Shown piece by piece: positions 1-60,341 of a stretch of 64,000 nucleotides of DNA. This stretch comes from Dermatophagoides farinae (lineage: Eukaryota; Arthropoda; Arachnida; Sarcoptiformes; Pyroglyphidae), in NCBI RefSeq assembly GCF_024713945.1, contig NC_134678.1, positions 3,162,001-3,226,000 on the forward strand. The letters are read 5' to 3'. The notes beneath the pieces are model-generated. The model had not been told where the DNA came from and searched no databases. It saw only the letters and a list, made by a program, of their open reading frames with translations. The first letter of the stretch is position 1. The number at the start of each line of letters is the position of its first letter. A program made the translations under genes and the position numbers.

Positions 1-1682
1 TTGATTTGTTATCAAAGTATTTTTTTTTAATAATCTTGATAATAAAAACATGTTATCTGACAATTTTTGTTTTCTCTTCAATTGTTTCATTTCAATCATT
101 GTATCAATCTATTAAATCAAGTGCATCATGCTCAAAATATATCTAATCTAATCTAGTTTATTTTATGTTACACATACCAATGTTAGTCATAAAACGACCG
201 GGTTTGTTTTTAGGCAAGAAAATGACTTTTAACCATGAGTCAAAAAAAATTGAGAGATTGAATGTGACAATATTTTTTTTTTTGTTATTTGTTAGGCAGA
301 TGGTACAATTTTAATTTGAAAAATTACTTGGTATTTTGCTGGAAAATCTTATTGAATTATTATACAAAGGTCAAATGAATGAATGAATGATGGTATAAAT
401 GGAAATTTGTTGTAAATTTTACCACATAAAAACAGATCACCTGCTTCAATAGAAAAGATAATCTTGAATTGTTTTTTTTCAGACTAATTTAAAGTCTATT
501 ATTATTATTATTATTATCACTATTTATTTGGATCAATTTTATATTGAAGATTGATCATCTTTCGAAAATATAAGAAAATTAAAAAATCATAGTTGTTGGT
601 AATTGTTCCAAATGAATTTCAAAATAAACATTAGTAAAATTTTTTTTGGAAATTTGGCACGCGCATCACGTGCGTGTTATGCACGTTCCCGATTCCGGTG
701 TTTTTCACAGAAATGATAATGGTTTATTAGTCCAAATTAGGCAGATGTATGATTTTACAGACCTAAATCACAGAGCAATTTACAGACCAGCAGCAGCAGC
801 AGAAGCAGCAGTTTTTTTTTGCAAAAATTGTTCCGTTATAAATAACAAACAACAACAACAATTGATTTAATATTATCATTCAGTCATTTGCAACATGAAA
901 AAAAAGAGCAAGGGAGGGGTCAACTTGATTAACCTTAGCCATGGAATTCATCACCTGCTCTTCACCTAAGGTCATTATTATCGATGATGATAATGTATCT
1001 GCGGATGGGCTTGTAGATAGAAATTGGGCCGATTGTCTAGTCCGATTGTTTGGAAAAATTGTTTGTTTGAAAGAAGAAAAAAATTTGATTTTTTCTTTTC
1101 TCCTAATTCTCTCTAGTGATTAATCAAATTAACAACCAGAAAAAAACCTAAGGGCCATCATCATGATTTGATCATCTAGATTTTTGTTTTCAACGATAAA
1201 GAATCTATAAAGCTTTGGAAAAAAAAATTTCTGTAGAAAATATTCCGATTAGATTGATGACCATCATCATCATCATCATCATCCAGTAGCAATAATCGTG
1301 GATGGACAATTTAAATTCCATATTCGTCGAATCGTAACCAGAGAAAAAAAACAGTAGTAATTCCTACTGTTCAGTCAAAAAAAAACGGAAAAAAATCGTG
1401 ATGAATCACTGGTGAATTCAATGATCAATGTGTGGTGTGTATAATTTTGTATTGAATTTTAAAATTGCAACATTGCAAATGAATGCAAAACACAGAGTGA
1501 CAAACAGAACAAAACAAAACAAAACAAAAAACTGTATAGATATGCAATGTATAATTGCAATTTCATTTGAAATTAAATTCAGGATGTCTGAATGAATGAA
1601 TAGCTGTTTTTTTTGTTTTGTTCAAATGGTCTCTGGTCTATCAAATCGTCATTATCATTATTATTTCTGGTTTGGCTAGCAG
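1..1682. other. AT-rich intergenic DNA, left edge
   Basis: No gene is supported here. The stretch is AT-rich with poly-A/T runs and short ATC/TTA trinucleotide tracts (for example near 500 and 1265). A GC-richer patch at about 656-710 holds a CACGTG E-box (669-674) among CACG/CGTG words. The short open frames at 646-870 and 941-1123 have no family match that I recognise and read through poly-Q/poly-A-like repeats, so I do not call them genes. Confidence 0.6.
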
Positions 1683-2254
1683 CTGTTGAATATATTTAAT
1701 TAGTATGTTCAATAGTGTAAATATTGTATATATATGAGTTTGTTAACCAGTTATTTATTAATGATTAAACACATATTTCATCAACTGCTTGACATTCTCA
1801 CAGCCGGATAAACGATAAAGAATTGGCCTCATCGACTGCTTGAACAACGAATGCCACTGCCAAGAACTAATCGAATCTTTTACGACGTGCTTCCAAAGCA
1901 CTCTTCTTTCCAACGTTAACATGATCACCATAGACCAGGCGTCGGCAACCTGCGGCCCGCGGGCCGCATCTTCCATAGAGCTCTATGGGAAATGCGGCCC
2001 GCGGGCCGCAGGTTGCCGACGCCTGCCATAGACCATAGATGAAAATTTGTATCGACCAAAATACAAATGTTTGACATCTCTTGCGTGCTGGGCCCATAAC
2101 CTGTTGAAATATTTAGCAAGAGGCTTGGAAGTATAAGATTCAATAGTTAGCAGTTGATGAATATGTGTTTTAATCATAATAAATAACTGGTTAACAAACT
2201 CATATATATACAATATTTACACTATTGAACATACTAATTAAATATACTCAACAG
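1683..2254. mobile_element. Inverted-repeat (foldback-type) element carrying a gene-like fragment
   Basis: Arms of about 105 nt at 1683-1790 and 2147-2254 are inverted copies of each other with few mismatches. They begin CTGTTGA(A/G)TATATTTAATT and share the TGAGTTTGTTAACCAG segment and the inner ACACATAT..CATCAACTGCT segment. The interior reads as an open frame on the minus strand (about 2210 to 1868) ending in a basic ALEARRKRFD-stop; I do not recognise the protein. The inner ends of both arms contain the same coding-like words, so the structure may be an inverted duplication of a gene's 3' part rather than a true transposon. I see no clear target-site duplication outside the arms. The 90-bp hAT-type element at 1936-2025 is a later insertion into it. 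Confidence 0.7.
1936..2025. mobile_element. 90-bp palindromic hAT-type miniature element
   Basis: The element starts CAGGCGTCGGCAACCTGCGG and ends with the inverse complement. The whole 90 bp is one palindrome with only two mispaired positions, and it contains the GC-rich core GCGGCCCGCGGGCCGC twice. It is flanked by an exact 8-bp direct repeat, CCATAGAC (1928-1935 and 2026-2033). An 8-bp duplication plus CAG..CTG ends with GTCGGCAACC is the signature of hAT-superfamily transposons. It has no coding capacity, so any movement would need a transposase from elsewhere. It is strikingly GC-rich in an AT-rich neighbourhood. Removing it and one copy of the duplication restores a continuous minus-strand open frame in the host element. 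Confidence 0.88.
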
Positions 2255-5200
2255 TTATATTAAACAACTAATTCAATATTTCTTTTAACAATTCCAACAG
2301 CAGCCAATTCGTATTGCATCACTACAATAATGATTATTCATCCATTCCATTTTCAGATTAGTGACTATGGTTTGTTGATAAGGTTTTTGCAACACCAAAC
2401 ATCGTTTTATTTTTTTCCATAAAGAAAGGATTAAATAATCCTAAAGAAAATCATATTGCACACATGATTATTGTAAGAAATTCATTCCCGGAATTTATTC
2501 ATCATGTTTATTAACAATGAATTCAATGCTTTAAATCATTAATGAAAAAAAAAATATTTGAAAATAAATGAATCATTTCATTTGAAAGAAACATACATAT
2601 TCGATACCTTGAAAATTTTCACTTGAAAACGGGCCTCAATTTTTTTTTTGGAAAAACAAAAATACCGCAAGTGAAAAGTTTGACCAAAAAAAAAACGGGT
2701 TTGTTGTCCTTGGAATGTCAATGAGTTGTTTCCACATATTTGGAATGTTGCCAAACCAAACAAAAACAATAATCATCATCATTATAAAAGCCATCATTAT
2801 CATCATCATTATTCATTGATGATCATTATTATCAGCGTTCATTCATTGAAAATTTTTCTCTTTTGGATAACGTACAACACAAATATTTGAAATTCATTTT
2901 CGGTGCCTTTTTTAGAAAGCATTTTTTCCATGGAATTTGATTTACAAAACGATTTTTCTTCATCATCATTATCGTCATTTCCTTTTTGTTCGTAGCAAAA
3001 AAACCGAAAACAACTCAAAAATTCGATGGGGCGAAAAAATATTAGTTATAACACCGTTCTTGTGATGGATCGTTTTTTAGTTTTTGGATCAAATATTTCA
3101 ATTAACTTTGTTTTTGTTTTGTTCACGAGAAAAAATAATCAGAAACTTGTTGAAATTGGAATAAAATAATGGACATTTCTTTCAGCTCATTAATCCACAC
3201 ACATCATACCATTTGACATATGACCTCCATTATGATCACATGGTTAACATATTGACAGCGACTTTGTATGTGTTTTCTTCGTTGAAACGACCCAAACATG
3301 TAAAACGTAAGGCAAACGTTTTTTTTTATTTTGAAGACTATATGACAATGATGGTCAGTCAGAAATCAGTCTCGACTTTGAAAATGACCTGGTTGAATAA
3401 ATGAATGAATGAAAGTGGTATATTTTGGAATTTCATTTGATAAAAACACTTACTTTTTTGCTGGTTTTAATTATGATGATGATGATCGGATGACCACCCC
3501 CTACCATCTACTATCATCATCATAGAAAGGAGACAGCAGTAAACGTACCTTGTTGTCCTTGGACATTTTCGTTGTTTTTCTCCAGTTGTCCATGTTAATG
3601 GTCAAATATTTGCATGAAATGTATGGAAAGAAACAAACACACAAAAAAACACCATCTGAACATTGTATATGGTGTGTGTGTATGCGTAGTAATTAGCCAT
3701 GAAAAAAGGAAGAACGAACGAAAGTTTTATTCATTGAAAAAAAATTTGCACCAAAAACTTGTCCTTGTCCAATTGGACAGGAAAAACAAAAATAGCAGAA
3801 ATTTCTCTGCTGTTTTGTTTTCCAAAATCATCGTCCTCATCATCGTCATCATCATTGTCAAATCGTTCAGGAAAACCTAAAAATTATTGTTTGATGTATA
3901 GCCGCACGGCTACACACTATTTACATATAAACACATGTAAATAATGTCCCAAAAATGAATACAATGATTAATGGTGTTTGATTATCAATTTATATATATT
4001 CGATTCGGTTGTTTGTTCATGTTTCATAAGCGAACTAAATATACTGACGGAAACACCCATTGATATGATCAGATCATCTCATCGAGAAATAACAACAACA
4101 ACAACAATAACAACAAGTGGAATTTTCATGTTTAATTATGGTCAAGTTTTTTCCTTATTTTCGGGTAAAACAAACAAAAAGACAAACAAAAAAAAATAAA
4201 TAAATAGAGAAAGAAAAAAACACTGGACACTTTAGAATCTATGAGAAAAAATAAAGTAGGACACACAACACACACACACACAATTGAAATGAATTATTAT
4301 TATGATTATTGCTTTTTTTATTGAAAATTTAAAATATTTGTGTTTATTTAAATTCAAATAAATTTTCAAAGATTATACCACCATCAAATACACATAGGAA
4401 ACAAATATGAATATATATGCCAGAATATAAGTGTCTTGATTATTATTAGTTTTATTATGATTGACAAATGTATGAATTTTTCAAAATAAAGCCAAAATTC
4501 TGTATGTTATGTTATATAAATATAAATGATTTAAGCCATATGACCATTCTATCCATGAGATTGAATTCAAATTGATTATTAAAACATCGTTATGATGAAA
4601 TATTGTGGAGCGAAATAAAAAAAACAAAAAACAAAAAACCAGGAAAAGAAAAATAACTTGAAATTCCATTTATCAATCATAGGCTGTAAAAAAGGCACAT
4701 TATTCATAGTGTTTGACAGATAGAGAGAGAGAGAAAAAAAAACTTGGATAATAAGTGTAGGTGTGTGTTGTGAAATGATCAAAAACAAACGTAAAAAAAA
4801 AGAATGACAAATGAAAATCGGAAATGAAGAAATTTATTTTGCTCCACATTATTATTTACGTTTAATTCATTTATCTTTTGAATAAAATTTTATAATTAAT
4901 TGTCAGCAATTATAATTATTATTATTATTATGATTATTAATATATATTTTTCTTCGTAATATAAATTGAATATAACCTGTTGATTAATATGTTAAGACAA
5001 TCTCTCTGTGTATGTATGTTTGTATGTATGTATGTTCTTGTCTGTGTCTTGTGTATGCAGCATTTTATTTAACATCTACAACACACGTATATCACAGAGT
5101 GAATAATGTAAGAAAAATCTAAGTGTAATGAAAGGGGCAAAAAAAAGAAAAAAGAAATGCCATGACAGAATCTGATGACAGATTAATAGTAAAAAAAAAG

Positions 5201-5296
5201 GATTGAAATGAATTGAACATATATGTTGTGTAATGTAATATATTTTTTTTCATAATATGCGATTATATATGTGTGCCATATATTATCTAAATGTTA

Positions 5297-5329
<33 letters not shown>

Positions 5330-5916
5330 GGAAAAAATTTTTTTTGCGAAAAAAAAACCAAATAGACATTTTATATTATTATTATTATATTTAGGAAATA
5401 TTTTCGTAATTCGTATAAGCAAAAGTGTTTATCTCTGTATTTTATGTGTGTGTGTGTGTGTGTGTGTGTGTTTGAGATAAACAAGTGTCAATGGTTTGTT
5501 TTTTTCCCCGTTCGGATAAGACAAAAAAAAAATATGTGTGAAATGAACAATTTTAATTTGAAAAAAATTGATTTTTTCATGTTTTTTTCAGTGTGTGTGT
5601 ATGTATGTATGTATGTATGTATGGTTTACCAAATCATCAATCAGCAGAAATCTGATCTTGTAAACATCCGATTACATTATTTAAAAAAAAAATTATACAA
5701 TTCAAAATCTTTCCATTTTCTTTAATTTCTTTTTTTTAGTCAATCGAAAAAAAAAATATTTACCACAAACACAAACAATGGTTAAACACAATCAGACAAA
5801 AAAAACATTACATTTGATGAAAATACAAAAAAAAATATATGTAGATTTTTCTCCCATTCAGAATGAAATGGATTTATATTATATATATATATATGTATGT
5901 GTTATTTATATGTTAT

Positions 5917-6373: not shown

Positions 6374-7892
6374 TTATGTTGAAGATTCATTACACCTTCT
6401 CAATATTTCCATTAAACGATTCCGTTTTTCAATCTCAATACGATGTTCATGTTCTAATTGTTCATTTTCATGGATCAAATCCTGTACATAATTTGTTGCT
6501 TCATGTAATATCATAATTCTTGGTGGCCTTTTCTGTGATGTTTTCAATTTTGGTATCTGATCTCGTAAATTATTGAATGAATTTCTCAAATGATCACGAC
6601 GTTTACGTTCCGAATCATTATGTTCACGTCGTTTTACCGGTGGTGATGATCCACCACCATTCAATTTTTGTTCACAACCATCACCTGATAAAAATGATAG
6701 ACTACTTTCTTCCGAATCAGAACATGCGGGACTATTTAATTGTAAATTCGAAATAAGGTTTACGGCTGCTGATGATGTGGTGGCCAAATTTTTTACATGA
6801 ATTACACGTGATAAATTCGATGATGTCGAAATTGATGTTGGATGTTGAACAATAGTGTTGGGATTTTTTCTTTTAAGCGGTTGAAAATTTTTTATATTAC
6901 TAGATGATGATGACGATACTAATGTTGTTTTGATGACGCTGTTCTGGTTTTCTTTCTTTATACCATTTATTATTGAGACATTTGATGATGACACGGCATT
7001 ATTATTCAACAAAGAACTACTAGATGATGTTTGTTGCTGTTGTTGTTGATGTTTGCGATTGCTATTCGACAATTTTTTACATCGCATTTTAGACATTCTC
7101 GGCTGACCAATCGATTTATTTTCCATTGGTTTCCTGTATATGCCTAAATATATTCAACAACCAATCATCAATTAAAATTTATTATCATAATGAAAAAAAC
7201 TTACTTTTCGTATCTTTATGTATGAGACTTTTTTCATTCAAATCAGACATAATCGTAATTTTCTGCTGCTGTTGTTGTTGTTGTGATGAACCATATGAAT
7301 GATCATTGGTCATTGCATAAACATTACCACTTGTTACGGTATTTGATGATTGTTGTTGTTGTTGTTGATCATGTTGTTGTTGATTATTATCATCATCGAC
7401 TGTATAATTTTCATTCATATTCAAATCACAAGAATGAATATAATTGAATGCGCTTTGTGGCGATGTCGATAGATTGAATGGTGTTCCAGGCCTAAAAAAT
7501 GTTGCCATTGATTTACTGTTGTTGTTGCTATTCATATTGGTAATGCCATTCAGGCTATATGTGGATGATTTACATTTATGTTCACTACATTGTCCTGACC
7601 ACATACAATCATGTGCAATCACATTTTTACCAATTTCTTCATCTAGATGCATCTTTTCATCATTAAGTAAATCTTCACAACAATCCAATATGAATGGTGG
7701 TGATTGTGGTGGTGTAGGTATAAAATTACTCCATATTTCTTCAAAACAAAATGAATTCGTTATATCTGTAACATCGATATCGGTTGGATCGACACTAAAA
7801 TCTTCATTAAAAAACATATCGAATGATGATGATGATGATGCTGGTAACGGTGAATACCGATTGTTGGAATTATAGTTAATTTTGACAGGCAT
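6374..7892 (-). CDS. Myc: Myc-family bHLH-leucine zipper transcription factor
   Basis: Two coding exons, complement(7205-7892, 6374-7143), give about 485 aa. The donor is GTAAGT at 7204-7199. The acceptor TTTAG just before 7143 keeps the frame (AGC codon split 1/2); the nearer CAG does not. Exon 1 carries the N-terminal MPVKINYNSNNRY start, Myc box I (EEIWSNFIPTPPQSPP, about residues 52-67) and Myc box II (DCMWSG, about 96-101), followed by poly-Q/N tracts. Exon 2 ends in a basic region (HNDSERKRR, with the DNA-contacting His, Glu and Arg), helix-loop-helix (SFNNLRDQIPKL) and a C-terminal zipper. Family role: heterodimerises with Max, binds CACGTG E-boxes and drives growth, ribosome biogenesis and metabolic genes in the nucleus. 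Boxes I and II plus the bHLHZ separate it from Max, Mad and Mnt. It stands alone in gene-poor DNA. Confidence 0.95.
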
Positions 7893-9420
7893 TTTTCGAA
7901 ATGTCTAATTTTTTTGTCAAATATGGACAACAAGGATGATGATGTTGATGAACACACGCACACACACACGAGATGAAAACAAAAAAAATTCGAAAATTAG
8001 AAATTGAAGAGATCAATCAATCCAGTAAAAACAAACACAAAGAAAATTGTCAACAGTTTTAAAACAAAAAAAAATTAAAGTTTGTTTGTAACCGGCAAAA
8101 TTTGGCGCCTAAATATATGTTGCTCCATTCAATTTAATTAGAAATGATTTTTCAATCCTTATAAATGAAAATTCAAATTCGTACGATATCCCTATATCAT
8201 ATAGAACAATTTGGATGAGATGACAATGTTCGAAATAGAGCGAAAAATAGAAAGTTCAAAATTCGAAATTTATCCAGTGAAAAAAAAAGATCGAATGGAA
8301 TTTGAATCCGCGCAACAGAGAGAGAAAGAAAACAAATTGCAGTTGCGAACAATGCGAGTGACGATGAACGTTTGGTAAAACCATCCGTATAGCAAGTGGA
8401 ATATAAATACCTCGATACACTACTATGGCCGACAATCGCGGTTTTTCTACTATCCATCAACAAACACTGACACTGCAGCATTGCTTTTACTGCTTTCAGC
8501 TGAATGTATGCAAACAAAAATGGGGAAGCAATGCTATTGCCGAAAATACAAACCACCCAAAAAAAATTTCGGCTAAAAATTCTATTCCAAATCCATTCCC
8601 TTTTTAAATATACTACTACCATATAATTCTTATCACTACACTAAAAAAATAGTCATGCGCATTAAACAAACATTATATATGTGTTTTAACCTGCACAACA
8701 CAAAAAAGAATTGATTTTGAAGCTCCAACTCATCATCATTATCCCCAAATCAGCAGTTGTAAGATTTTTGCAATAAACAAAGCTTAAAGCAGCAAATGGT
8801 AGTAGTGGGCAAGAAGAAACTATATTCTCTTGTTACACACACACACAATCTACAGGCAGGCAATGCAGCTGCTGATGATGCTGTTGTTGTTGTTGTTGTT
8901 GTTAGCACTTACCGCACCTTTTGAGCCTTTAAATTTCTTTTTTTTTTGGATTATAAAAGAAAAAAATAAGATCAACAACAATAATTTTAATCATCATTAT
9001 TTTTTGACCATATGAGACATTGCTATTGATCGATTGATTGGTTGTTTGATAAATTAAATTTCGATGATGACAATCATGTTCGAGTCATTGTCATGAGAGA
9101 AAAAATAGGCGTTTGCAATTGAAAATGCTGCATAGCATTCGATGAAAAAAAATTGGGAAATTTTAATAAAACTATATCTATCTCTATACATTACATTATC
9201 TTATCTACAAAAAAAAAATCGAACTCACAAATCTAATTCGAATATGTGGGGCAAATTCGCTAAAATTTTTCGATATGATATCGATAAATGGATGTAACAC
9301 ATAAAACATATGGCATTTTTCTTTTTCTTTTTTTTAGTAACAAAATTGAGTTTGCAAACAAAATCAACTTATTTCTTTTCTGATGATAATAATAATTAAC
9401 ATACCTGATGATGATTTGGA
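7893..9420 (-). other. Myc upstream region (candidate promoter / 5' UTR)
   Basis: No ORF here looks coding. The block at about 8200-8620 is more complex in sequence and has fewer microsatellites than its surroundings. It lies 300-730 bp upstream of the Myc start codon, as expected for a promoter or 5' UTR. The open frame at 8197-8622 (minus) has no recognisable domain and its composition does not match the real exons. A consensus-like splice donor (CAG|GTATGT) on the minus strand at about 9402 could end a distal 5' UTR exon. That is inference. Confidence 0.35.
8101..8113. promoter_or_regulatory. E2F-like site upstream of Myc
   Basis: TTTGGCGCCTAAA lies about 210 bp upstream of the Myc start codon. 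It differs by one base from the palindromic E2F consensus TTTGGCGCCAAA. Function is inferred from motif and position only. Confidence 0.45.
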
Positions 9421-20000: not shown

Positions 20001-21569
20001 ACAATTTAAGAAACAAAAAAATTTGATCAAAAACATAATTTAAATTTGAATTAAAGAAAAAAAACATGAAATTTTCACAAAATCAATTTGTTTGAAGCAA
20101 AACCAACATATATTGTTTGTGTGTAGGATTTATGTCGCCATTGCGACATTAACAAAAAGAAAAATCCTATATAAAAAACGATATATGAAATTGATTTATT
20201 TAAGGCAATTTTGAACAACAAACAAATATTATCATTAAATAATTGTCGCCATTTGTTATCTCGATGATGATGGCGATGATGACAATAATAATAATGTCGC
20301 GACAAATTTTTTTTTTGTTTTTTACTTTTTTTTTCTTTGTTATTTGCTTCCGCAATCCACGAAAATAACCCCAAAAAAAAATTATTATTATCAATAATAA
20401 TCATAATAACAATGGATTCATTTTCATTTTCATTTTCTTTTTGGATTATTAAACGATAATGATAATCATTATCATCAATGGGGGTGGTCTTATCCGGAAT
20501 GTTTAAAATTTTTTATTTGTATTTGTATTTGTTTTCATCCTACATCACATCCCCATTATCCAAATTGAGTTGATTGTTTATCGGTCACGTATTCAACAAG
20601 TTTAATCAATCAAATCAAATGAATCAATCATTTATCAATGATAGACATCAAACACACACACAAAAATTGTTTGTTAAATTTCTGATGACAATCAAAAACA
20701 ATAACAATAATAACCAATCATTTTATCGAGAATTTCATATCGGAACAATAATTCATTGAATTCCAAAAAAAAAAAAAAAAAAACAAAAACAAAAACAAAA
20801 ATGAATCAATTTTCATTCAATTTACAATTCAATGAATGAATGAATGTTCATTGTTGTTTTGTTGATAAATTGTTTTCGCAAATCCAAATACACACCCACC
20901 GAAGTGTGAAATACAACGACAACAAAAATCATTGTTTTTTCCATTAAGGAAAAAAAATGACATACGATTTCATTATTTATTTCGATTTCTGTTCTAAAGA
21001 TAAAAAAAAATCCCAATATCAAATGGCAATATCATATAAGTGTGTTTTATATTTGAAAATGAAATGTTAATTTTTTTTCTTTTTTTTTTGCTATGATTAT
21101 AATGAATGATAAGAGATGCTACCAAACAACGACGGTTAACGGACAACAATCAACCACAAGTTTTGTGTGTGTGTGTGTGTCTTCAAACACGTGTGTACTA
21201 TGCTGATGTTGCTCATCATCATCATCATCGATTGATTGTTTGATTTTAACATGACGACAGTGTAGTAATCATCAAAAAAAATAAGAGATGCGCATATAAA
21301 AAAACGAGACAGAAACGAATTGTCATTGAATCCAATGGATACATTGTAAATTTGATACAGTATTAGTCAGTCAGTATCTTTCTCATTCATTCATTCATTG
21401 CTTCTTTGTATCGATAATCATCATTAAATCCATCACCAACAACAACTTGTTAGCACCGGTATACACTGGGCGAATGATTATGATGATGATGATGATGATG
21501 AACCATATATCATTTATGATGAAACAAATTCCATAAATCTAGTTATTTCTGGCTTGTATATTTTTTTGT

Positions 21570-22197
21570 GGTTCTATAACAATTGGTCGAACACAAAAAG
21601 GTCGAACACAAAATGGTCGAACACAAAAAGGTCGAAAACCCCTATCTCCTTAATGAGCGCTTAAATGAGTGAGCGCTTATTGAAAACGGTTAGAATGTAC
21701 ACATGTAGGCCTATGAGTAGCTCGCTTAAGAAGCAGAGCATGGGAATGGGATGGCCTATGGAGATCGGCACGCACGTTATGAAGATTTTAACGTAATGTC
21801 AGTGTCGGCTTTTCCCTTATTCAATGCGGGAAACGTCAGTGTCGACTTTTCCCGCATCCAATGTGGATAACGTCAGTGTTGACTTTTTCCCGCAATCAAT
21901 GCGGAAAACGTCAGTGTTGACTTTTTCCCGCAATCAATGCAGAAAACGTCAGTGTTGACTTTTTCCGGTATTTAATGTGGATAACGTCAGTGTTGACTTT
22001 TTCCGGTATTTAATGTGGAGAACGTCAGTGTTGACTTTTTCCGGTATTTAATGTGGATAACGTCAGTGTTGACTTTTTCCGGTATTTAATGTGGAGAACG
22101 TCAGTGTTGACTTTTTCCGGTATTTAATGTGGATAACGTCAGTGTTGACTTTTTCCGGTATCCAATGTGGTTAACTTGATCAACTCTTTGTTCGAAT
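21570..22197 (+). repeat. Left inverted arm of the Foldback-like element
   Basis: Order from the outside: four ~15-bp GGTCGAACACAAAA-type units, a ~170-bp unique segment, then about ten ~38-bp units of the form AACGTCAGTGTTGACTTTTT + CCGGTATTTAATGTGGA(T/G). Outer units carry CCCGC and inner ones CCGGTATTTAA, and the last five or six alternate ..GGAT/..GGAG. This pattern indicates amplification of a two-unit block. The arm ends at the ATCAACTCTTTGTTCGAAT segment shared with the right arm. Confidence 0.92.
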
Positions 22198-22611
22198 ACT
22201 TGATGGTTGGAAGCAAAAAAGTGTTTTACACATTTGTCGCAGGAAATTTCCTTGTCTTTGGAAATTATTATATACAAACGTCATTCTACTAGTCTATGTC
22301 GCTTAGCGTAACTGGCTATGCTTTTACACTCTGCAAGTGCTTGCACTGTGTATTAACTTGGCATTTTATGCGGCGAAGCTGAATCGGCGATTCCTACTTA
22401 TTTTCAGTACAAACATAACTATTTAGCATGAGCTACTCAGTGTGTGTGTGTCTGAACATATCGAACAGTGGGGAAAACTTTTGAATGCCTCTGAACAGTT
22501 CGTCCAGCTCAGAGCTAAAAGCCACTTCTAAAAAACGCATTCTGTGGTATGTAGTTTTGACAATGCTTTTTTTCATTGTTCTAGCTCAGCACACGTTGCT
22601 GCCAACATTGC

Positions 22612-22906
22612 CAAGATCAGTAATTTCAAATCTACGATCCAATTCATTAATCAGGGTATCAATTTCTGACTCATTAGGTCCGGTAACAATAATATCATCA
22701 ACATACAGAAGAAGAACGATATTTTCCCGTTTAAACAAAAATCGTTCTGATATGCATTTCAATAAGATGATTAGAAATAGTCCGGTACCACTCTAATGGA
22801 CTTTGTTTCAATCCGTACAACGTTTTCTCCAATTTCAGCAAACCACCACCTTCAAAACCAGGCGGCGGATGGACATAAACCGGTTCATTACTAGCATTAA
22901 GAAAGA
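22612..22906 (-). pseudogene. Decayed Ty1/copia-type reverse transcriptase fragment
   Basis: On the minus strand one frame gives FLNASNEPVYVHPPPGFEG and then LYGLKQSPLEWY. After a frameshift and an in-frame stop, a second frame gives LLLYVDDIIVTGPNESEI. These are the copia RT blocks, with YVDD as the catalytic aspartate motif. The two blocks are one frame apart. No gag, protease, integrase, RNase H or LTR is seen, so it cannot make a working enzyme. It lies in the loop of the Foldback-like element and most likely entered as a captured or nested fragment. Confidence 0.88.
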
Positions 22907-23019
22907 GTCCGTAAATAACAACCTTTTGTTTTCAAACTTAAACAATAACAAATACGATCTGGAGTCGGTGATGCAGTATCCAGATCAATCCATAGCGTTG
23001 ACGATAACCGCAAGCATGT

Positions 23020-23157
23020 TAGGTTGGATTTGTCATTTTCTCGATTTTGAACTTTGAATTCTGAACTGGTCGTGTTAATTTGGAAATTTGTCATTTTTTT
23101 GATTTTGAATTCTGAACTGGTCGTGTTAGGTTGGATTTGTCATTTTCACGATTCTCG
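23020..23157. repeat. Imperfect ~55-bp tandem repeat in the element loop
   Basis: The phrase TTTTGAATTCTGAACTGGTC with GTGTTAGGTTGGATTTGTCA-type text recurs two to three times in direct orientation next to the copia fragment. It is noncoding as far as can be seen. Confidence 0.7.
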
Positions 23158-23483
23158 AAAATTTTCGAAAGAACAACTCTTTTGCTATGCACTAGTGAAA
23201 TATTTTCGCTTAAATCCTACAAAAAACAAGAAGCTTCGAAAAAACTCTCTCTCCCATAGGCCATGAAACTGTTACTGTGTGTGTATGTATTTTTTATTTA
23301 AATGAAATAAAAAGATAAAATGCATTTTGAATGATAAACCATGTTACATATTTAACAAATTTGGAACCGATCTCATTGAATTTATATGAATTTGTATTAG
23401 AATAATTGATTCCTTATACAGCTTTTCGTTTTGCGGCCAAGTTTCGTGGAACGTATCTAGGCCGTAAAGCGAGGTATGAGTGC

Positions 23484-24050
23484 ATTCGAACCAAGAGTTG
23501 ATCAAGTTAACCACATTGGATACCGGAAAAAGTCAACACTGACGTTATCCACATTGGATACCGGAAAAAGTCAACACTGACGTTATCCACATTAAATACC
23601 GGAAAAAGTCAACACTGACGTTCTCCACATTAAATACCGGAAAAAGTCAACACTGACGTTATCCACATTAAATACCAGAAAAAGTCAACACTGACGTTTT
23701 CCGCATTGATTGCGGGAAAAAGTCAACACTGACGTTATCCACATTGGATGCGGGAAAAGTCGACACTGACGTTTCCCGCATTGAATAAGGGAAAAGCCGA
23801 CACTGACATTACGTTAAAATCTTCATAACGTGCGTGCCGATCTCCATAGGCCATCCCATTCCCATGCTCTGCTTCTTAAGCGAGCTACTCATAGGCCTAC
23901 ATGTGTACATTTTAACCGTTTTCGATAAGCGCTCACTCATTTAAGCGCTCTTTAAGGGGATAGGGGTTTTCGACCTTTTTGTGTTCGACCATTTTGTGTT
24001 CGACCATTTTGTGTTCGACCTTTTTGTGTTCGACCAATTGTTATAGCACC
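23484..24050 (-). repeat. Right inverted arm of the Foldback-like element
   Basis: Inverted copy of the left arm, with about eight 38-bp units instead of ten and five outer 15-bp units instead of four. The arms have therefore gained or lost units independently since they formed. Scattered single-base differences (for example ATCTCC versus ATCCCC after the outer units) suggest moderate age. Confidence 0.92.
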
Positions 24051-27000
24051 TTTTTTTGTGGTTCTATAAATGATGATGATGACTAAACGAATGAAATAGA
24101 TACAGAGTGAATAAAATAGAAAAAAAATCGATCAAAATCAATTATAAATGTGATTGATTATGATTTAACGATGATGATGATGATAACTCTATAAATTGAT
24201 ATGTTTATCGAGTGGTAAATCTCTTTATTATGCGTGTGTGTTTGTGTGTGTTTTTATGATTGAAAAGTATCAATCAATCAATTTAATTCAATTGATTGAT
24301 TGATTGATTGAACAACACACATAAAACGACAAACAAATATTGTCGTAGTTGAAAATATTTATTTTCATCATCATCATTACTCTTTTTCTCTTCTCTCTCT
24401 CCCTCTCTCTCCCTCTCATTTCACACACAATCTTTACGAGAAAGAAAATACATTTTGTCAAAAAAAAACAAATACATTGTTACAATAAATTTTTCCGATT
24501 GTCATCCCATTCGGAATGAAAAAAAAAATTGATAATCATGTGTGTGTGTGTGTGTGTGTTTGGAAAAAATTTGTCCCAATTAAATAAAATGAAAATCTCG
24601 ATTATTCTGGTTTTCCTGTTATCAATATGGACATCATACAATTGAAACTATTCATTCATTTGAATGATTGATTGATTGATTAAAGGAAAAAAAATTTGAT
24701 CATTGATCGATTGATATTCTAATCAATATATGAATGATACAATTTTTTTTTCTTCGAGTTGATTAGATTCACAAAAAATTCAGTTATTTTCGTCATGAAT
24801 GATAACAACCAACACCACAAAAAATGGGTGTTTGACATTTTTGGTTACAAAAATAATTTCATTTTTTTTTTGAAGGTTAAATTCACACAGTAAGAAATTA
24901 ATAAAAAAAATTTTTGATGTAATTAAATTTGAATTAAAACACCTATCCAACCTTGCCACCCATCCACCCACACACACACAAACACATAAAGGATGTGCAA
25001 TAAGTCAGCTCACCATCATCATCAACCAAATTAGATTTGACAACCATGAACACCATTTGGTTTCGGGAATCGGTTTATGTTTCATCAACAAAGTTCAACT
25101 TGATTTTAGCTATGTAATGAATTTGTTTAAAAACTGCGAAAAATGAGTAAAAAAAAATTAAATGATTGATTGATTGATGTATTTTGGCCCGGCACTTTTT
25201 TTTTGGTTTATTACTTTTCTTCATGGCATTTTTTTTCATTTGGTTTTGAAAAATAAATGAAAAAAAAAGATTGGCAACCAACCAGAAAAGAGAATTTTAT
25301 ATGTTCTTTTTTGCGAATGCAAAAATTATATATATTCATCATCATCATCAAACCAAAAATGAATAAACGATATCCACATGGATTTATTCATTTTTGGTTG
25401 CCGTGTCTATGTTTGTTGAATTCAACAGGCAACTACAAAAAAAATGAACTACTGTGTTTTGTACACTATAGCTTAAAAGTTTAATTTTCTAACTAAAATG
25501 ACGATATAGCTCATTGAATTTTATTTGAAGTTTGAATCGTCGTTTGAATGTTGATGATTCATGAATGAACAAAATGAATTGAATGAATAGAAAGAAAATG
25601 AGAAAATTGAGAACACACACACACACCGAGTATAGACAAAACAAAATATCATATAATCAGCGTAAAATGATATAGCTTTAGCATTCGAATAATAAATGAA
25701 TGATGCCTTCCCATGTGTCATTCATATATACTCATATATTTATATATGGAATTCGTTACAGATTGAATGATTAACCAGAAAAAAAATGATGAAGAATTTT
25801 TCCTCTTCGTTTCTTTCTGGTTGGTTACCATATTATATTATAAATTGGTGAACATTACCATTTTTGGATTGATGCCTGACTGATATTCATAAATTCATTT
25901 GGTATATACATCTCGATGTGGGTGGTGATGATGTTGATGTTGATGTGTATATCCACAAAGACCAAAGGTTATTCCATGTTTATTATGATGATTTTTGTTT
26001 CTAGCCAAAAGGGCAATAAAAAGTGGGTTCTATTATTTTACCGAACTATGAACTAGGAATATAAATGATCGAAAAAAATGTCTGTTTTATCCATGGTGAT
26101 GTGTGAATCTGATTTTGGATTTAGTTTTTTTTTCGAACAAAATTGAGCTAGATTTATGATTATTATGATGATGATGATACGGTTTTTTTTTCGTTTTTCG
26201 GCAAACAACAACAAGTGTCATGATTTGTAATGTTTTTTCTTACCACCTTTTTTTATTTTGTATATGTGTGTGTGTGTGTGTGTGGTTTGATTTAGTGATT
26301 TATGCCATTGCCATCATTAAATATTGCATTATTTTTCTCATTCGTTTCTCATCTACCAATGATGATGACTTTGTTGAACTTTTGTTTTGTTTTTTTTTTG
26401 GAATATTATCTCAAAAAAAACTGAGATGTATTGATTGATTGTTTTGGCTTTAAGGTCAAAATTTTGTTAACGAAAATAGTAATTAAATAAAGAATTAATT
26501 CGATTGTCTATGAATTGATTTGATTGAAAATTTTTTTTTAATGATTTTTTTAAAAAATCAATTTATTTCAACTGCCATGGTCCATGAATCATTATTATAT
26601 TAAAGTTTATCAATTTTGATCAATGAATGATTTTGACTGTATAACCTCGATCGAGGACAATAGATTCCCATATAAATTCATTGATTAGAATTAATTCTTT
26701 GAATATGAACAACAACAACAACAACAACAACAGAAATATCCATGATGAGTATATGATCATTATTGATGATGAAGATCATCAGACAAAAACCATAATCTAA
26801 CCAAATCATCATACAAAAAAATGCATATTATTGAGGCCTGCAAACAACAAACAGACAATATATGAATATATCATTAATCTATGGGCGAATGACCATGGTT
26901 GTCTGTTTGATGATGATGATGATCATCATCATCATTTTGATCGGTTTATTGACTATGTGTGTGTGTGTGAGAATGAATCGGTATAAATCTGATCAAAAAC

Positions 27001-35083: not shown

Positions 35084-37148
35084 TCAGAATGCAACATTTG
35101 ATTCAAGCATTTCGACAAACAATTTTTGCATCGGTACACTTCCTTCTTGCAATATATTTGACCATAATCGCCGTGTAACTGTATCCAATTGTCTAAGCAA
35201 TGGAAAACATAGAAATATTTGACTAAGATGATTTATAGCTGATTGTGGTCGCAGTATGGAAACACATTCCTGTAATGTTTGTAGCAATGTATCACGTAGT
35301 TTTGAAACACTTTCTTGATTTTCCAATTGTATATCTGTATATATGTGTAATGAATTTGGAAATAGAAATTATCATTAAATCAGTGAGTATTTCAAGTTAA
35401 AAACCACAAACATTTACCCGCATTGGTCAATATGATTGCCTTCATAAGTAAATATTCTTCCTTGGCAATTTTCAACTGATTCAAACGTCGAATCAATTGA
35501 ATCAGATGAGCAAACAATTCTTCGGCATTACATTGAGCAGCCTGTTGATCATCAATAATAAAATCTGTTGCAAACACTAATTTATTAAATATTGGATTCG
35601 TTGTCGACGATGCATTGCTTGGACTAAGACATGCAGGTGTGTTTGGCGGTGAACTATATTGTTGAGATCTATCAATTATGTTTATGAAAAAAAATATTAT
35701 GATGATAAAAAAATAAACAGACATATATCGGCATATAAAAACGAACCGGAACGCAAGTGATAATGATAATATTTCAGCCCAAGTTGATTGTAATAAACGC
35801 ATTTGATCATTAAGAATTAAATCAGTAAAACCGGGTATCTGTTTAGCCCATGCTATTGTAGCCACTAATTCTTTATCAACCAATTCACTTAAAATACATA
35901 GATTTTTATATTGTGATGATGAAACGGATGAAATGCTGTTATTCGAACTAGGACTATATAGATGTATATTGGCATTACTCATTATCGGTTCAGGCTCACA
36001 TTTAATCAATGCGGCAATAATTCGATTATCTACAGAAAAAATGTAATTAAAATCATCATCAATCATTAAGTGAGGAAAAATCAATAAAATACCATCAATA
36101 TTGGATTTTTTTAGACTGTAATTCTGTCCCTGATATGGTGCTTCCGAAGTACGGCGATATTTTTGCCTACCACCACGAACACGATCCAATCGTACACCTT
36201 CTTTAAGCATACCCATGCGAAGACACTTTTGAAAACGACATGCCTGACATGCTTTACGTCTTCTCTTATTGATTTCACAATTATTGGTCGCTGGACATGT
36301 ATATTCAATGTTGCCTTTTTTCAGAAAAAAATTGTGAAAAATCAATTAATCTGTTAAACAAATAAATACCTTGAATAGTCCGTTTAAAAAATGCTTTACA
36401 AGCTTCACATGATGCAACACCATAATGAAAACCGGATGCCGTATCACCACAAACCAAACATAGACGTTTTGGGGATGAATCACGTACCTTATTTAAATCA
36501 TTTGTATCCAGACAAACATTTGTGTTTATATCACCTGAAACGGTGCTTGAGCAAAACATTTCTTGATGATGAGTGTCATTATTATTATTATAATTCAATG
36601 GTGATGATGATGGTGAATGTTCAAGGCTTGCTGGTGCGCTAAAGAGATCCTATTTATTCATTAATTGAAGAATCAAATTTATAGAATTTTTCTCATTTAA
36701 AACTACTTATACTTACGACATTGATCGATGTTTGTGTTGTGCTATTACTGTTACTGTTATTGATTTGATGCTTGGAAATAGGAAATTCGATCCGTTTTAT
36801 ATTGGCCGATGATGATCGATGATTATTATTGGCAGTTGTCGTTATAGTTGTCACACCTCTATGTAATGTTGATATTGTTTGCTGCTGCTGTTGATGATGT
36901 TGATGTGAGGTATTCTGGTTGTTGGAAGTCGATTTAATAATGGCAGCCGTATAATTATGTCCATTTCTAACATCCAATGATTCTTCATTATTCAATGATG
37001 TTGTTGTACTGTTACTGTTGCTGTTATTTCTTGAACTTGTACTGGTGGAAATATATCGTATACATTCATCTTCTTCTTTAATAATTTCCTGTTTAATAAT
37101 CTGTTTTGTAATTAAAGGACTGATGATCGTTGCATTCGTTGTTGACAT
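35084..37148 (-). CDS. ERR: Estrogen-related receptor (NR3B-type nuclear receptor)
   Basis: Six exons, complement(36717-37148, 36370-36649, 36093-36314, 35747-36029, 35418-35668, 35084-35334), keep one frame for 572 aa. The start is ATG at 37148; the longer open frame begins at a TTG and is not used. Residues 1-175 are low-complexity. The DNA-binding domain follows: first zinc finger [21 protein letters not shown] with P-box [10 protein letters not shown], second finger [20 protein letters not shown], then the ERR-typical C-terminal extension [20 protein letters not shown]. The ligand-binding domain has the helix 3-5 signature ([20 protein letters not shown]) and the AF-2 helix [13 protein letters not shown]. 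Family role: ligand-independent activator of glycolytic and mitochondrial genes, binding TCAAGGTCA. A Ser/Pro/Asn insertion lies between LAFR and KLVFATDF. Introns 3 and 4 (63 and 78 nt) are stop-free and in frame. Confidence 0.95.
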
Positions 37149-47004: not shown

Positions 47005-48525
47005 ATGGCATCAACGAAGACGACGAAAAAAATGACTGAATTCCACTTGAATCGTTATCAATCACCATTGTCGATGCGTTATGCATCGGATGAAATGAAT
47101 TATAATTTTAGTGATTTGAAAAAATTCTCTACTTGGCGTCGTTTATGGATTATTTTAGCCAAAGCTGAAAAAGAATTGGGTATCGACATTACTGATGAAC
47201 AAATACAGGAAATGGAAAATAATCACGATAACATCGATTTTGAATTGGCCGTTGAAGAGGAAAAGAAAACACGTCATGATGTAATGGCACATGTTATTGA
47301 ATTCTGTCATAAATGTCCATCAGCGACTAAAATTATCCATTTGGGTGCTACCAGTTGTTTTGTTGGTGACAATACAGATTTAATCTGTATCCGTGATGGT
47401 TTTGATATTCTTCTACCAAAAGTTGCACGCTGTATTAGTCGTATATCTAAATTTGCCGAACAATATCATTATCTTCCAACGCTTGGTTTTACTCATTTTG
47501 TAAGTTTCTGTTTGTTTGAAATGATTGTTGTTAATTAATTATCTAAAAAGCAACCAGCACAAATGGTCACCGTTGGTAAACGAGCATGTCTTTGGCTTCA
47601 AGATTTATTGATTTCATTACGTAATATGGAACGAGCAAAAGATAATCTGGCTTTTCGTGGTTGCAAAGGAACGACCGGTACACAGGCTTCGTTCATGCAA
47701 TTATTCAATGGTGATGAGGAAAAAGTGAAAAAACTTGATCAACGTGTAACAGAAATGGCCGGATTTCGTCGATCATATCCAGTTACTGGACAAACATATA
47801 GCCGTCTGGTTGATGCTGAAGTTTTAATGTCACTTTCGTTATTAGGTTCAGCTATACATAAAATCTGCACCGATATACGATTATTGGCAAATCGAAAAGA
47901 AATTGAAGAACCATTTGAAAATACGCAGATTGGATCATCGGCTATGCCTTATAAACGTAATCCAATGCGTAGCGAACGTTGTTGTTCATTGGCTCGACAT
48001 TTGATTACGTTGTCAGCCGATGCATTCAATACCGCTTCAGTACAATGGCTTGAACGTACATTAGATGATAGTGCCAATCGTCGTATTTCGATAGCCGAAG
48101 CTTTTCTCACTGCCGATATTATTCTGAATACAATGCAAAATATTTTTGAAGGTACCGTTGTTTATCCGGCTGTCATTAATAAACACATCAAAGAAGAGTT
48201 ACCATTTATGGCAACTGAAAATATAATCGTAGCAATGGTGAAAAAAGGAGGCAATCGTCAAGAATGTCATGAAAAAATTCGTGTCCTATCACATCAAGCT
48301 GCTGAACAGGTGAAACGATTAGGATTGCCTAATGACCTTATTGAGCGAATTCGAAAAGATTCGTATTTCAATTCAATTCATAATGAATTGGATGGTTTGT
48401 TAGATCCAAAAACATTTATTGGTCGTGCACCGAATCAGGTGCTTGAATTTCTTCGCGATGAAGTCACACCCGTTCTTAATCAATATAAATCCTATCTTAA
48501 TTCAAAAGCCGTAGTAAATGTCTGA
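47005..48525 (+). CDS. ADSL: Adenylosuccinate lyase
   Basis: Two exons, 47005-47499 and 47551-48525, with a 51-nt intron (GTAAGT..AAAAAG) give 489 aa, close to the human enzyme. The homotetrameric cytosolic enzyme cleaves SAICAR to AICAR and adenylosuccinate to AMP, releasing fumarate; it serves both de novo purine synthesis and the purine nucleotide cycle. Seen in the sequence: RHDVMAHV with the fumarase-superfamily histidine region, [26 protein letters not shown] across the splice site, and the superfamily signature loop [16 protein letters not shown] containing the catalytic serine. [11 protein letters not shown] and [10 protein letters not shown] are also typical of animal ADSL. It faces the PAK4-type kinase gene tail-to-tail with 157 bp between stops. 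Confidence 0.97.
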
Positions 48526-57946: not shown

Positions 57947-59094
57947 TCAAATGGTAGATTTTTTACCATCATTCAAAGAAAGTCGAATGTCTTGGATATC
58001 TTTTTTCAATATTTCAACTAAACTCATAATGCCACGATTCTCTTCATTTAAAAATTGTAGATATTCATTCATACTGGATTTATCGAAAGATATTTTACCA
58101 ATCAATGGATTTTGACATTGCATCTGCCGTAGCTGTGACATTAATTCATTAAGGCAGCCTTGAAATTTGGTTGGTACATTTAGTTCAGCTTGTATGGCTT
58201 CCAGATCAGCACGTAGCTTATCTTCTTCAGCCTGTATTGGCATCGTTCGTTTACGTTGTACTTCCTGTACAATCATCTTACGCAATACACGATACGAAAG
58301 ATTATCATGTTTACGTCGACATTCTTCGAATTTTGCCTTGAATTGTGAAATATTACTTTCCAATGTTGAAACATTATCAATCATCTGTTTCAATCGAAGT
58401 TGTTGTTGATGAATTTCTTTTTCCTGTAATTTAAATCGATCATTTAGCGCTTTAAAACCAATCAATGGTACGGGTATGAATCGTTGTGGATCAGGATTTT
58501 CCAATTTCGCCTGTTCCCATATTCGTTCATCAATACCTTTCGGTGGTGAGCTTAAATAGGCTTCGATTTCCTGTTTTGAAAGAGATGTGAATATAATCTC
58601 GACAAAATTGTTGATGAAAATTTGATTCAATTGTTGTTTCCATTGGGGTTGATTGAAATTTGTACGCAATTGTGCGTCTGGTATGATTTTACTGGTAGCA
58701 TTTTCAGTAACCATAATGGCAATCAATGCTTTACTATCGGGCAGTATTGTTTTCAACTCAAGTTTAACAGTATGATTTTGTCCAATAAATTGTTTAAAAT
58801 TCTGTTCATACTGAACCAAATTCGTTCGTAATTGTTGTTCATCAACATATCGGATGAGAAAGAATAATTTTTCTTCAAGATTTTTTTCTTCTGAATAGGA
58901 AATCGTTTTAAAACGATTAAATGAATCCGTTTTATTCAATTCATATGGGGGATTGAAAGCCGAATAGTATGCTTTACCGGCACCCCAGAATGCCTGTATT
59001 TGATTGAATAATCCAATAATATTATCACGGTCATCATTGAAAATTTTCGGCATAAATAATGATGTTAAGGGAACATTTTGCTGTTGTTGCGACG

Positions 59095-59125
<31 letters not shown>

Positions 59126-59200
59126 AGTTTGAAACATATTCAATCCGGGATTAACGGAAAAATTGGTAAAATTACCCGATGATAAATTTGATTGAGCCAT
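57947..59200 (-). CDS. Nup54: Nucleoporin Nup54
   Basis: Single exon, 417 aa, ATG at 59200. Residues 1-50 are Q-rich (FQTQQQQQQQQQQPSQQQQ). The conserved Nup54 part follows: IIGLFNQIQAFWGAGKAYY near 62-80, FLIRYVDEQQL, and DPQRFIPVPLIGFKALNDRF near residue 240. A long coiled coil covers the C-terminal third (RLKQMIDNVSTLESNISQF; VQRKRTMPIQAEEDKLRADL). Family role: with Nup62 and Nup58 it forms the central channel trimer of the nuclear pore. I see no FG dipeptides in the N-terminal part, where relatives carry FG repeats, and the protein is shorter than the human one (507 aa). An unseen upstream exon is possible but the divergent ASF1 gene leaves only 241 bp. Confidence 0.94.
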
Positions 59201-59441
59201 TATCGATTAAAGAATCAATTTTTCGAACATTGCATGCACGAAAAATGTTGAGAAAAAGTCCGTTCATAAAGGATATTACGAGTTTGGCGCTAATTATTTT
59301 ATTGGGCTTTCTTTTGTGTTGTGCTGACGCTTGCTGCTGTTGCTGCTATCACTGTGTTCTGTTCGAACTCCACTCGAGTCGGTTTTTGACTTGTAATCGT
59401 TGAAAAAAAAATTCAAGAAATCATTGTTAAATCAAAGCGAA
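59201..59441. promoter_or_regulatory. Bidirectional promoter, Nup54 / ASF1
   Basis: 241 bp between divergent start codons, with TTTGGCGC at 59283-59290, an E2F-type core. Confidence 0.5.
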
Positions 59442-60341
59442 ATGGCAAAGGTTTGTTTTTGATTTTTCTGATTTTTTTTTTGATTTGAAGTTGATTGAAA
59501 TGATTTTTTTTTTCTCTCGTTCGATCATAGGCTCAAATTGTTAACATTGTCGTTCTTGGTAGGTGTTTCTCATTCTTTGTTCTTTAGTTGATGTTTGGCT
59601 GAATATTCATTAATCTTATTCCACTTTTCACATATAGACAATCCTTCATTATTTTTTAATCCATTTCAATTTGAAATTACATTCGAATGTATTGAAGATC
59701 TAAAGGATGATCTTGAATGGAAAATAATTTATGTTGGTTCAGCTGAAAGTGAAGATTATGATCAAGTTTTGGATACAGTGTTTGTTGGGCCCGTACCAGA
59801 AGGACGACATATGTTTGTATTCCAGGCTAATGCACCGGATCCATCAAAAATACCTGTTGCCGATGCTGTCGGTGTTACCGTTGTGCTGTTGACATGTTCA
59901 TATCGTAGTAAAGAATTTGTTCGTGTTGGTTATTATGTTAATAATGAATATATGAATCCTGAGCTACGTGAAAATCCACCATCCGTACCACAATTTGAGA
60001 AACTTCAACGTAACATATTGGCCACTGATCCGCGTATAACAAAATTTAAAATTGATTGGGGTGATGATGTCGATGATGATGTTAATGATAATATCGGTAA
60101 TAATGGTGGTAATAATGAAAACAATTCATTCGAAAGATGTTCTACAACAAATGGAACATATAAAACAATGATGGAAAAATGTGGTTTCCTCGAACCATCA
60201 TCAAATGTTAATGGTACAACAATAACAACAACCAAAAGTGATATGAATAATTCGAATTGTTTCATATCTGAAGATAGCATTGGACCATTGAATCCGGTTT
60301 CATTACAACAGCAACAGCAAGATAATCCAATGGAAATATAA
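59442..60341 (+). CDS. ASF1: Histone chaperone ASF1
   Basis: Three exons, 59442-59450, 59531-59558 and 59638-60341, encode 246 aa. Exon 1 is only nine bases (Met-Ala-Lys) and exon 2 is 28 bases (AQIVNIVVL plus one base), so automated gene finders would probably truncate the start. The first ~155 residues are the conserved immunoglobulin-like core: NPFQFEITFECIEDLKDDLE, WKIIYVGSAESEDYDQVLD, VGPVPEGRHMFVFQA, GVTVVLLTCSYRSKEFVRVG and YYVNNEY, including the strands that bind histone H3-H4. The tail is acidic then Asn/Gln-rich (DDVDDDVNDN; QQQQQDN). Family role: delivers H3-H4 to CAF-1 and HIRA during replication and repair. Confidence 0.97.

Follow-up and report, generated by a model that had tools for sequence, protein, structure and literature searches.

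Muta1, a mosquito Mutator element classed by its authors as a type 2 Foldback, generates 8- or 9-bp duplications on reinsertion in yeast, and non-autonomous derivatives of Muta1-like families carry host gene fragments, according to the parts of that account drawn on here (PMC5225508). For Aedes aegypti, the same parts give 8-9-bp duplications in 14 of 14 families of Mutator-like elements (MULEs), and subterminal tandem units of 9-15 bp in 10 of the 12 long-armed families (PMC5225508). Tm1 of root-knot nematodes, in the sections consulted, comprises one transposase-coding element and many without (PMC3169594). Here, we describe an element with long inverted arms in the mite Dermatophagoides farinae, located in a stretch of 64,000 nucleotides (NC_134678.1, positions 3,162,001 to 3,226,000; assembly GCF_024713945.1) that we refer to as the window. 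Window positions 21570-24050 correspond to C2:3183570-3186050, where C1 to C9 denote contigs of the same 62.4-Mb genome. Very probably, the element is a non-autonomous Foldback transposon that belongs to a recently mobile family, with Mutator (MULE) as the most likely type.

An earlier note, made from the sequence alone, had proposed a Foldback-type element with near-identical inverted arms at this site, and its arms, units, duplication and coordinates were all recovered (Table 1). The two arms are 96% identical over 515 nt. From the outside inwards, each consists of a 17-bp end overlapping the array of 15-bp units, a spacer of about 150 bp, the array of 38-bp units and a short inner end. Long inverted arms built from tandem subrepeats, here of 15 and 38 bp, are the feature by which we assign the element to the Foldback type. 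The flanking 9-bp duplication, described in the note as MULE-like, is present on both sides, and no transposase was seen within the window copy, as the note had also stated. Two of its figures needed adjustment. The span 21561..24069 holds the element with its duplications, but the last 10 bases lie outside the duplication. While 10 versus 8 is correct for the 38-bp units, 4 versus 5 for the 15-bp units is reached only with the degenerate last unit included, as there are three full units on the left and four on the right. The element sits in a gap without open reading frames (ORFs) of 200 aa or more.

Table 1. Features of the foldback element and its immediate surroundings, in window positions.
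Feature	Position	Strand	Basis
Complete element, subfamily A, non-autonomous Foldback, 2481 bp	21570..24050	+	Ends, duplication, relatives
Left target-site duplication TTTTTTTGT	21561..21569	no strand	9 bp
Right target-site duplication TTTTTTTGT	24051..24059	no strand	9 bp
Left arm, outer end GGTTCTATAACAATTGG, about 628 bp	21570..22197	+	Inverted-repeat pairs
Right arm, outer end GGTGCTATAACAATTGG on the minus strand, about 567 bp	23484..24050	-	Inverted-repeat pairs
Left array, 15-bp units (GGTCGAACACAAAAA)	21585..21636	+	Tandem repeats
Right array, 15-bp units	23969..24036	-	Tandem repeats
Left array, 38-bp units, n = 10, types ABCDEFEFEG	21794..22175	+	Unit typing
Right array, 38-bp units, n = 8, types ABCHFEIG, left-type	23506..23811	-	Unit typing
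Helitron-family 5' terminal piece, starts TCTACTAG, dozens of dispersed genome copies	22285..22602	+	Genome matches, alignment
Broken copia reverse-transcriptase piece, gapped against two related loci	22601..23016	-	Pfam RVT_2, genome matches
Satellite-like repeat with two units of about 51 bp (23045-23146)	23017..23155	+	Arrays at C5:2846-2851 kb and C4:1247-1248 kb
Right loop part; among the loci compared, long matches only to the other two long A copies, otherwise 23-26 bp	23156..23483	+	
GGTTCTATAA, copy of the element's left terminal 10 bp outside the duplication	24060..24069	no strand	Probable excision scar

We queried the whole genome with a degenerate 22-base pattern of the element ends, using the reversed pattern as a control. 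At three mismatches or fewer, this identified 58 matches versus 17 for the control. Ends with at most one mismatch numbered 34, of which 30 pair into 15 two-ended elements and four are single, while the 24 matches with two or three mismatches are about as many as the reversed control yields. A query with the 629-bp left arm gave 32 matches (20 candidates, all scored). Subfamily A contains four elements, namely the window copy, C4:828690-831075, C5:2408359-2410624 and C1:4311802-4313255. Each has one GGTTC and one GGTGC end, with identical polarity relative to the loop in the three copies that share it (window, C4 and C5). In global alignment, the similarity of the C1 copy to the other three A copies is only 60-65%. 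Subfamily B contains 11 elements of 886-1671 bp.

The duplications around the 15 two-ended elements measure 9 bp in 11 cases and 8 bp in three, with one element (C5:2853285-2854955) lacking a duplication; those of Mutator (MULE) elements are mostly 9 bp, with a range of 8-11. Among 20,000 draws of randomly shifted junctions, of which some were skipped where the flank was too short, 26 reached 8 bp or more, compared to 14 of the 15 elements. The flanks, compared over up to 600 bp per side with a low-complexity filter (one side was shorter in seven of the 15), are unrelated between elements except for two short matches of 39 and 45 bp. By this measure the family is mobile, with 14 of the 15 elements at unrelated sites and bearing duplications of their own. 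The earlier note had suggested counting copies of the arms in the same genome, and had allowed that they might occur only here or reflect an assembly artefact; the count of 15, at unrelated sites, speaks against both. The element without a duplication is the largest of the B type, and both of its ends are of the GGTTC form, a state consistent with two elements having recombined. A single foldback arm was also seen at C2:670000-678000, between tandem genes that, by reading, resemble chemoreceptor genes.

Three B copies on three contigs (C4:3130229, C3:4113851 and C2:1407398) are identical over 928 bp, from which we conclude that the family moved recently. Of the A copies, those on C4 and C5, each flanked by a duplication of its own, reach 99.7% identity over 2266 aligned positions, and their alignment includes 120 gap columns. 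In the loop of the window copy, 27 and 31 apparent substitutions were counted, many of which cluster beside small gaps and resemble alignment noise. The absence of a transposase inside the element and the broken copia piece in its loop might suit an old, dead inverted duplication with tandem arrays rather than a mobile element. With 15 two-ended copies, 14 duplications of their own, unrelated flanks and three identical copies, such an origin is hardly credible.

Among the papers listed in searches of the open literature, none described this family, subscription papers and Repbase being outside those searches, and on this basis the family appears to be undescribed so far. It is a new family of a known Foldback kind and not a new kind of system. 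The family ends had no matches in viral contigs and one match in prokaryote contigs, to an Armatimonadetes metagenome-assembled record, which is about the chance level for a 22-base degenerate pattern over 257 Gb.

Besides the duplication lengths, a related foldback element bears on the Mutator assignment. Inverted arms with 79% similarity over 95 bp enclose a PF20700 fragment at C6:720 kb. They match the arms of a second foldback element, located at about C8:2281680-2282865, with 81-83% similarity over 110-123 bp (114 bits, versus at most 29.2 in 50 shuffles). The 170-bp core of the C8 element is 90% like the core of the C1 A-copy and 85% like the B core. Judged from these similarities, the core and the arms of the related element would provide a good but indirect link between the family and Mutator.

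Several observations weigh against the Mutator assignment. The core match of the C6 Mutator element to B covers only 51 bp at 88%, and the core search had no match in the window, C4 and C5 copies. The ends of the C6:720 kb element are decayed and an 8-9-bp duplication was not found in the stretch tested, while the C8 duplication consists of nine T on each side in T-rich flanks and is weak by itself. Genome profile searches with PF10551 and PF20700 found no intact transposase. PF10551 identified one decayed FLYWCH-MULE locus at C3:1393-1398 kb, which scored 26.5 bits genome-wide at a cut-off of 27.6 (27.7 bits for the ORF piece alone) and is followed by an ORF with a GIY-YIG domain, and PF20700 identified one fragment at C6:720843-721139, with one stop (30.6 bits at a cut-off of 26.5). 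All 15 two-ended elements are 2481 bp long or shorter, so the mover does not necessarily have the GGTTCTATAACAATTGG/GGTGCTATAACAATTGG ends.

An element of another superfamily (Merlin, P/Galileo or hAT) with convergent long arms would also be compatible with the failure to find an intact MULE transposase. Foldback arms arise in unrelated superfamilies, with Galileo belonging to the P superfamily, in the parts of the sources used here (PMC3573991, PMC3169594). However, the related foldback element contains a Mutator domain, and a genome search for the Merlin profile (PF12762, IS1595-type DDE transposase) gave no candidates, P and hAT transposases being outside the searches. Duplications are 8 bp in hAT and 7 bp in Galileo, a poor fit to the 9 bp found in 11 of the 15 elements, and we consider this origin improbable compared to Mutator.

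Under the Mutator reading, a transposase made elsewhere would recognise the ends and probably the tandem units too. The same enzyme would cut the element out and insert it with the 8-9-bp duplications that we observe. None of the family copies carries a transposase. An autonomous partner sharing the ends, for which the earlier note had suggested a search, was not found with the whole-genome end pattern at zero or one mismatch. The two end matches with two mismatches were inspected and neither had an inverted partner within 2.5 kb; the one at C1:4425319 has, nearby, further short, weak similarities to a B copy and may be a decayed relative. No arm match was found in 9 kb around the FLYWCH-MULE locus on C3, which has only a telomere-like repeat in common with B. 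The 83-aa PF20700 piece from C6, searched against the genome, found only itself.

Other candidates for a transposase were rejected. The FLYWCH ORFs at C1:8549 kb and C8:495 kb have the FLYWCH domain only, without a MULE domain. A protein remnant in the C1 A-copy loop had no Pfam match and, beyond itself, only weak matches (E-values of 0.008-0.16) to B-type elements. Two loci matching part of that loop, C1:7902 kb and C6:961 kb, have neither a self-repeat nor an obvious transposase ORF. The C8 frame (C8:493800-497200, local 849-2027, minus strand) is open over 393 aa and could represent either a host gene or the N-terminus of a domesticated transposase. At C3:1392500-1401500, the decayed FLYWCH-MULE transposase (local 465-1342 and 3893-5336) is partly duplicated, with 98% similarity over 1.18 kb; short TTAGG-type telomere repeats lie between the pieces, and the GIY-YIG domain ORF behind them is LEM-3-like.

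Among the other core loci read outside A and B, six further core matches not being included, two (C6:720 kb and C6:3208 kb) are enclosed by arms like those of the C8 element or by fragments of such arms. The core locus at C4:534 kb has similar units on one side, and inverted arms were not found there. The shared core could be a hairpin spreading on its own. Short TTAGG-type telomere-like repeats stand beside a hairpin in many foldback loops, namely those of B and the C1 A-copy (for example, locus L034 at about 1280-1375). A protease ORF beside the C8 element has a general resemblance to trypsin, with the mite allergen Der p 3 seventh among the matches listed.

The loop query (22200-23490) had at least 76 matches in the genome, with the best 40 of 183 candidates scored. 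The whole loop is common to the window, C4 and C5 copies (95% and 93%). Because these long copies share it, the cargo travels with the arms, and it was most likely already in place before the three copies spread. The earlier note had read the cargo as a broken copia reverse transcriptase. Such a piece is present and broken, but most of the loop is not copia and also includes a Helitron 5' end and a satellite. The copia match spans about 416 of the 1286 loop bases, with gaps in the alignment to the related locus displayed. Two copia pieces searched separately with Pfam RVT_2 gave E-values of 5.8e-10 (over the cut-off) and 4.9e-6 (below it). The copia piece is 83% and 82% like loci on C6 and C8, which are 99.1% alike mutually over 3.5 kb.

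Seven distinct loci of the Helitron piece were aligned. All start with TCTACTA after an A, and the window copy has a T before it; a start directly after an A is what we take to be the rule for Helitrons. A Helitron 3' end was not identified in the loop. A relative at C9:3482500-3486500 shares the Helitron 5' part from about the 53rd base, followed by a 377-aa ORF that contains PIF1 helicase domains. At C5:2846334-2850885, large arrays of the loop satellite in alternating orientation lie beside a Helitron 5' end. The loop is passive cargo that moves because it is placed between functional ends, as the same loop at three different sites shows. In this way, debris of other transposons (Helitron and copia) and a satellite are carried as a block to new sites.

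The 38-bp unit types differ among the long copies. The C4 arrays read ABCEFEG on the left and JKLMNOG on the right, those of C5 ABFEG and PKLMNOG. Between C4 and C5, the right array differs by 0.4%, but that of the window copy differs by 0.8% from the C4 left array and by 6.8% from the C4 right array. Two spacer markers, at alignment columns 127 and 139, are arm-swapped in the window copy, while the outermost marker, at column 4, is unswapped. Since the right array is left-type and the two spacer markers are in opposite arms, at least one conversion, and perhaps a double flip, took place between the arms of the window copy; its direction assumes that the C4/C5 state is older. A point against such an exchange is that, outside the array, only two markers record it. 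The earlier note had treated unit numbers as a clock of unequal exchange. We reject this use, since conversion is evident when the three long copies are compared array by array and the left-type right array of the window points to conversion between arms.

Nine of the 11 B elements carry one or two 38-bp units, confined to one side, and the pattern used finds none in the other two, compared to up to 14 in a long copy. The long arms therefore probably grew from a B-like state with one or two 38-bp units on one side. Comparison of the copies shows that the arrays change by arm-to-arm conversion together with gain or loss of units.

Within the window, the 19-mer TTTTTTTGTGGTTCTATAA is found at two positions, 21561 and 24051, and the 10-mer GGTTCTATAA only at 21570 and 24060 on either strand. 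Calculated by hand from the base composition, a 10-base end copy would arise by chance at a given position with a probability of about 2 in a million. No end copy was seen in the 20 bases outside each of the other 14 elements. Most likely, the 10 extra bases are the scar of an imperfect excision at the window site. A scarred, excised allele would then have been joined to a filled allele by exchange or repair within the shared duplication, yielding the present structure. The exact match to the left end would also be expected if a second tandem copy had later been deleted, or if the element had inserted beside an old element end. A second element is not present at the site, though, and excision of Muta1 in yeast occasionally left up to 13 bp of the end in constructs without donor duplications, as the consulted parts of the study report (PMC5225508). 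That support for a scar is weakened because about 90% of Muta1 excisions were precise with donor duplications in the same account (PMC5225508). We regard the tandem or old-end origin as a serious contender, albeit the less probable one.

Elsewhere in the window, ORFs at 6374-7904, 35392-36345, 47539-48525 and 57947-60341 resemble, by eye, Myc, a nuclear receptor, adenylosuccinate lyase, Nup54 and ASF1.

The family offers a compact test case for how Foldback arms grow and how they stay alike, and also for how a family can give rise to identical copies on three contigs with no intact transposase recognised in the assembly. More speculatively, and in our view rather unlikely, the family may still be moving, driven by a transposase that escapes the Pfam MULE models in this assembly or whose ends are quite different, with frequent flip or conversion keeping the arms alike. 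If true, this would be a natural system in which foldback arms form, exchange and leave scars.

Compared to the described systems, as far as the parts of the sources used here go, the family shares with Muta1 and the MULEs with long terminal inverted repeats of Aedes aegypti the 8-9-bp duplications, long arms, short subterminal tandem units and non-autonomous copies with mixed cargo (PMC5225508). Muta1 has an intact transposase, 145-bp arms and 12-bp units, whereas the arms of the present family are up to about 600 bp long and combine units of two lengths, and a transposase was not found in our searches (PMC5225508). Tetris of Drosophila virilis is likewise a non-autonomous foldback with 8-10-bp duplications, tandem units in the arms and an autonomous partner that was not found (PMC4079207). 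Its units of about 220 bp seed large satellites, unlike the present arm units, which among the matches listed lie in family elements without a large satellite array (PMC4079207). As in Galileo of Drosophila mojavensis, the arms differ in their tandem units and through exchange of sequence between copies, but the Galileo transposase belongs to the P superfamily, unlike the present family (PMC3573991). Tm1 resembles the family in its 9-bp duplications, in the differing outermost motifs at its two ends and in arms of tandem units, about 14 bp long in Tm1 and varying in number, although the unit and end sequences differ (PMC3169594). Tm1-A encodes a FLYWCH-MULE (Phantom) protein inside matching arms, whereas the decayed FLYWCH-MULE gene on C3 has no arm match (PMC3169594). 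By analogy, the present family fits the long-armed MULE kind of Aedes aegypti.

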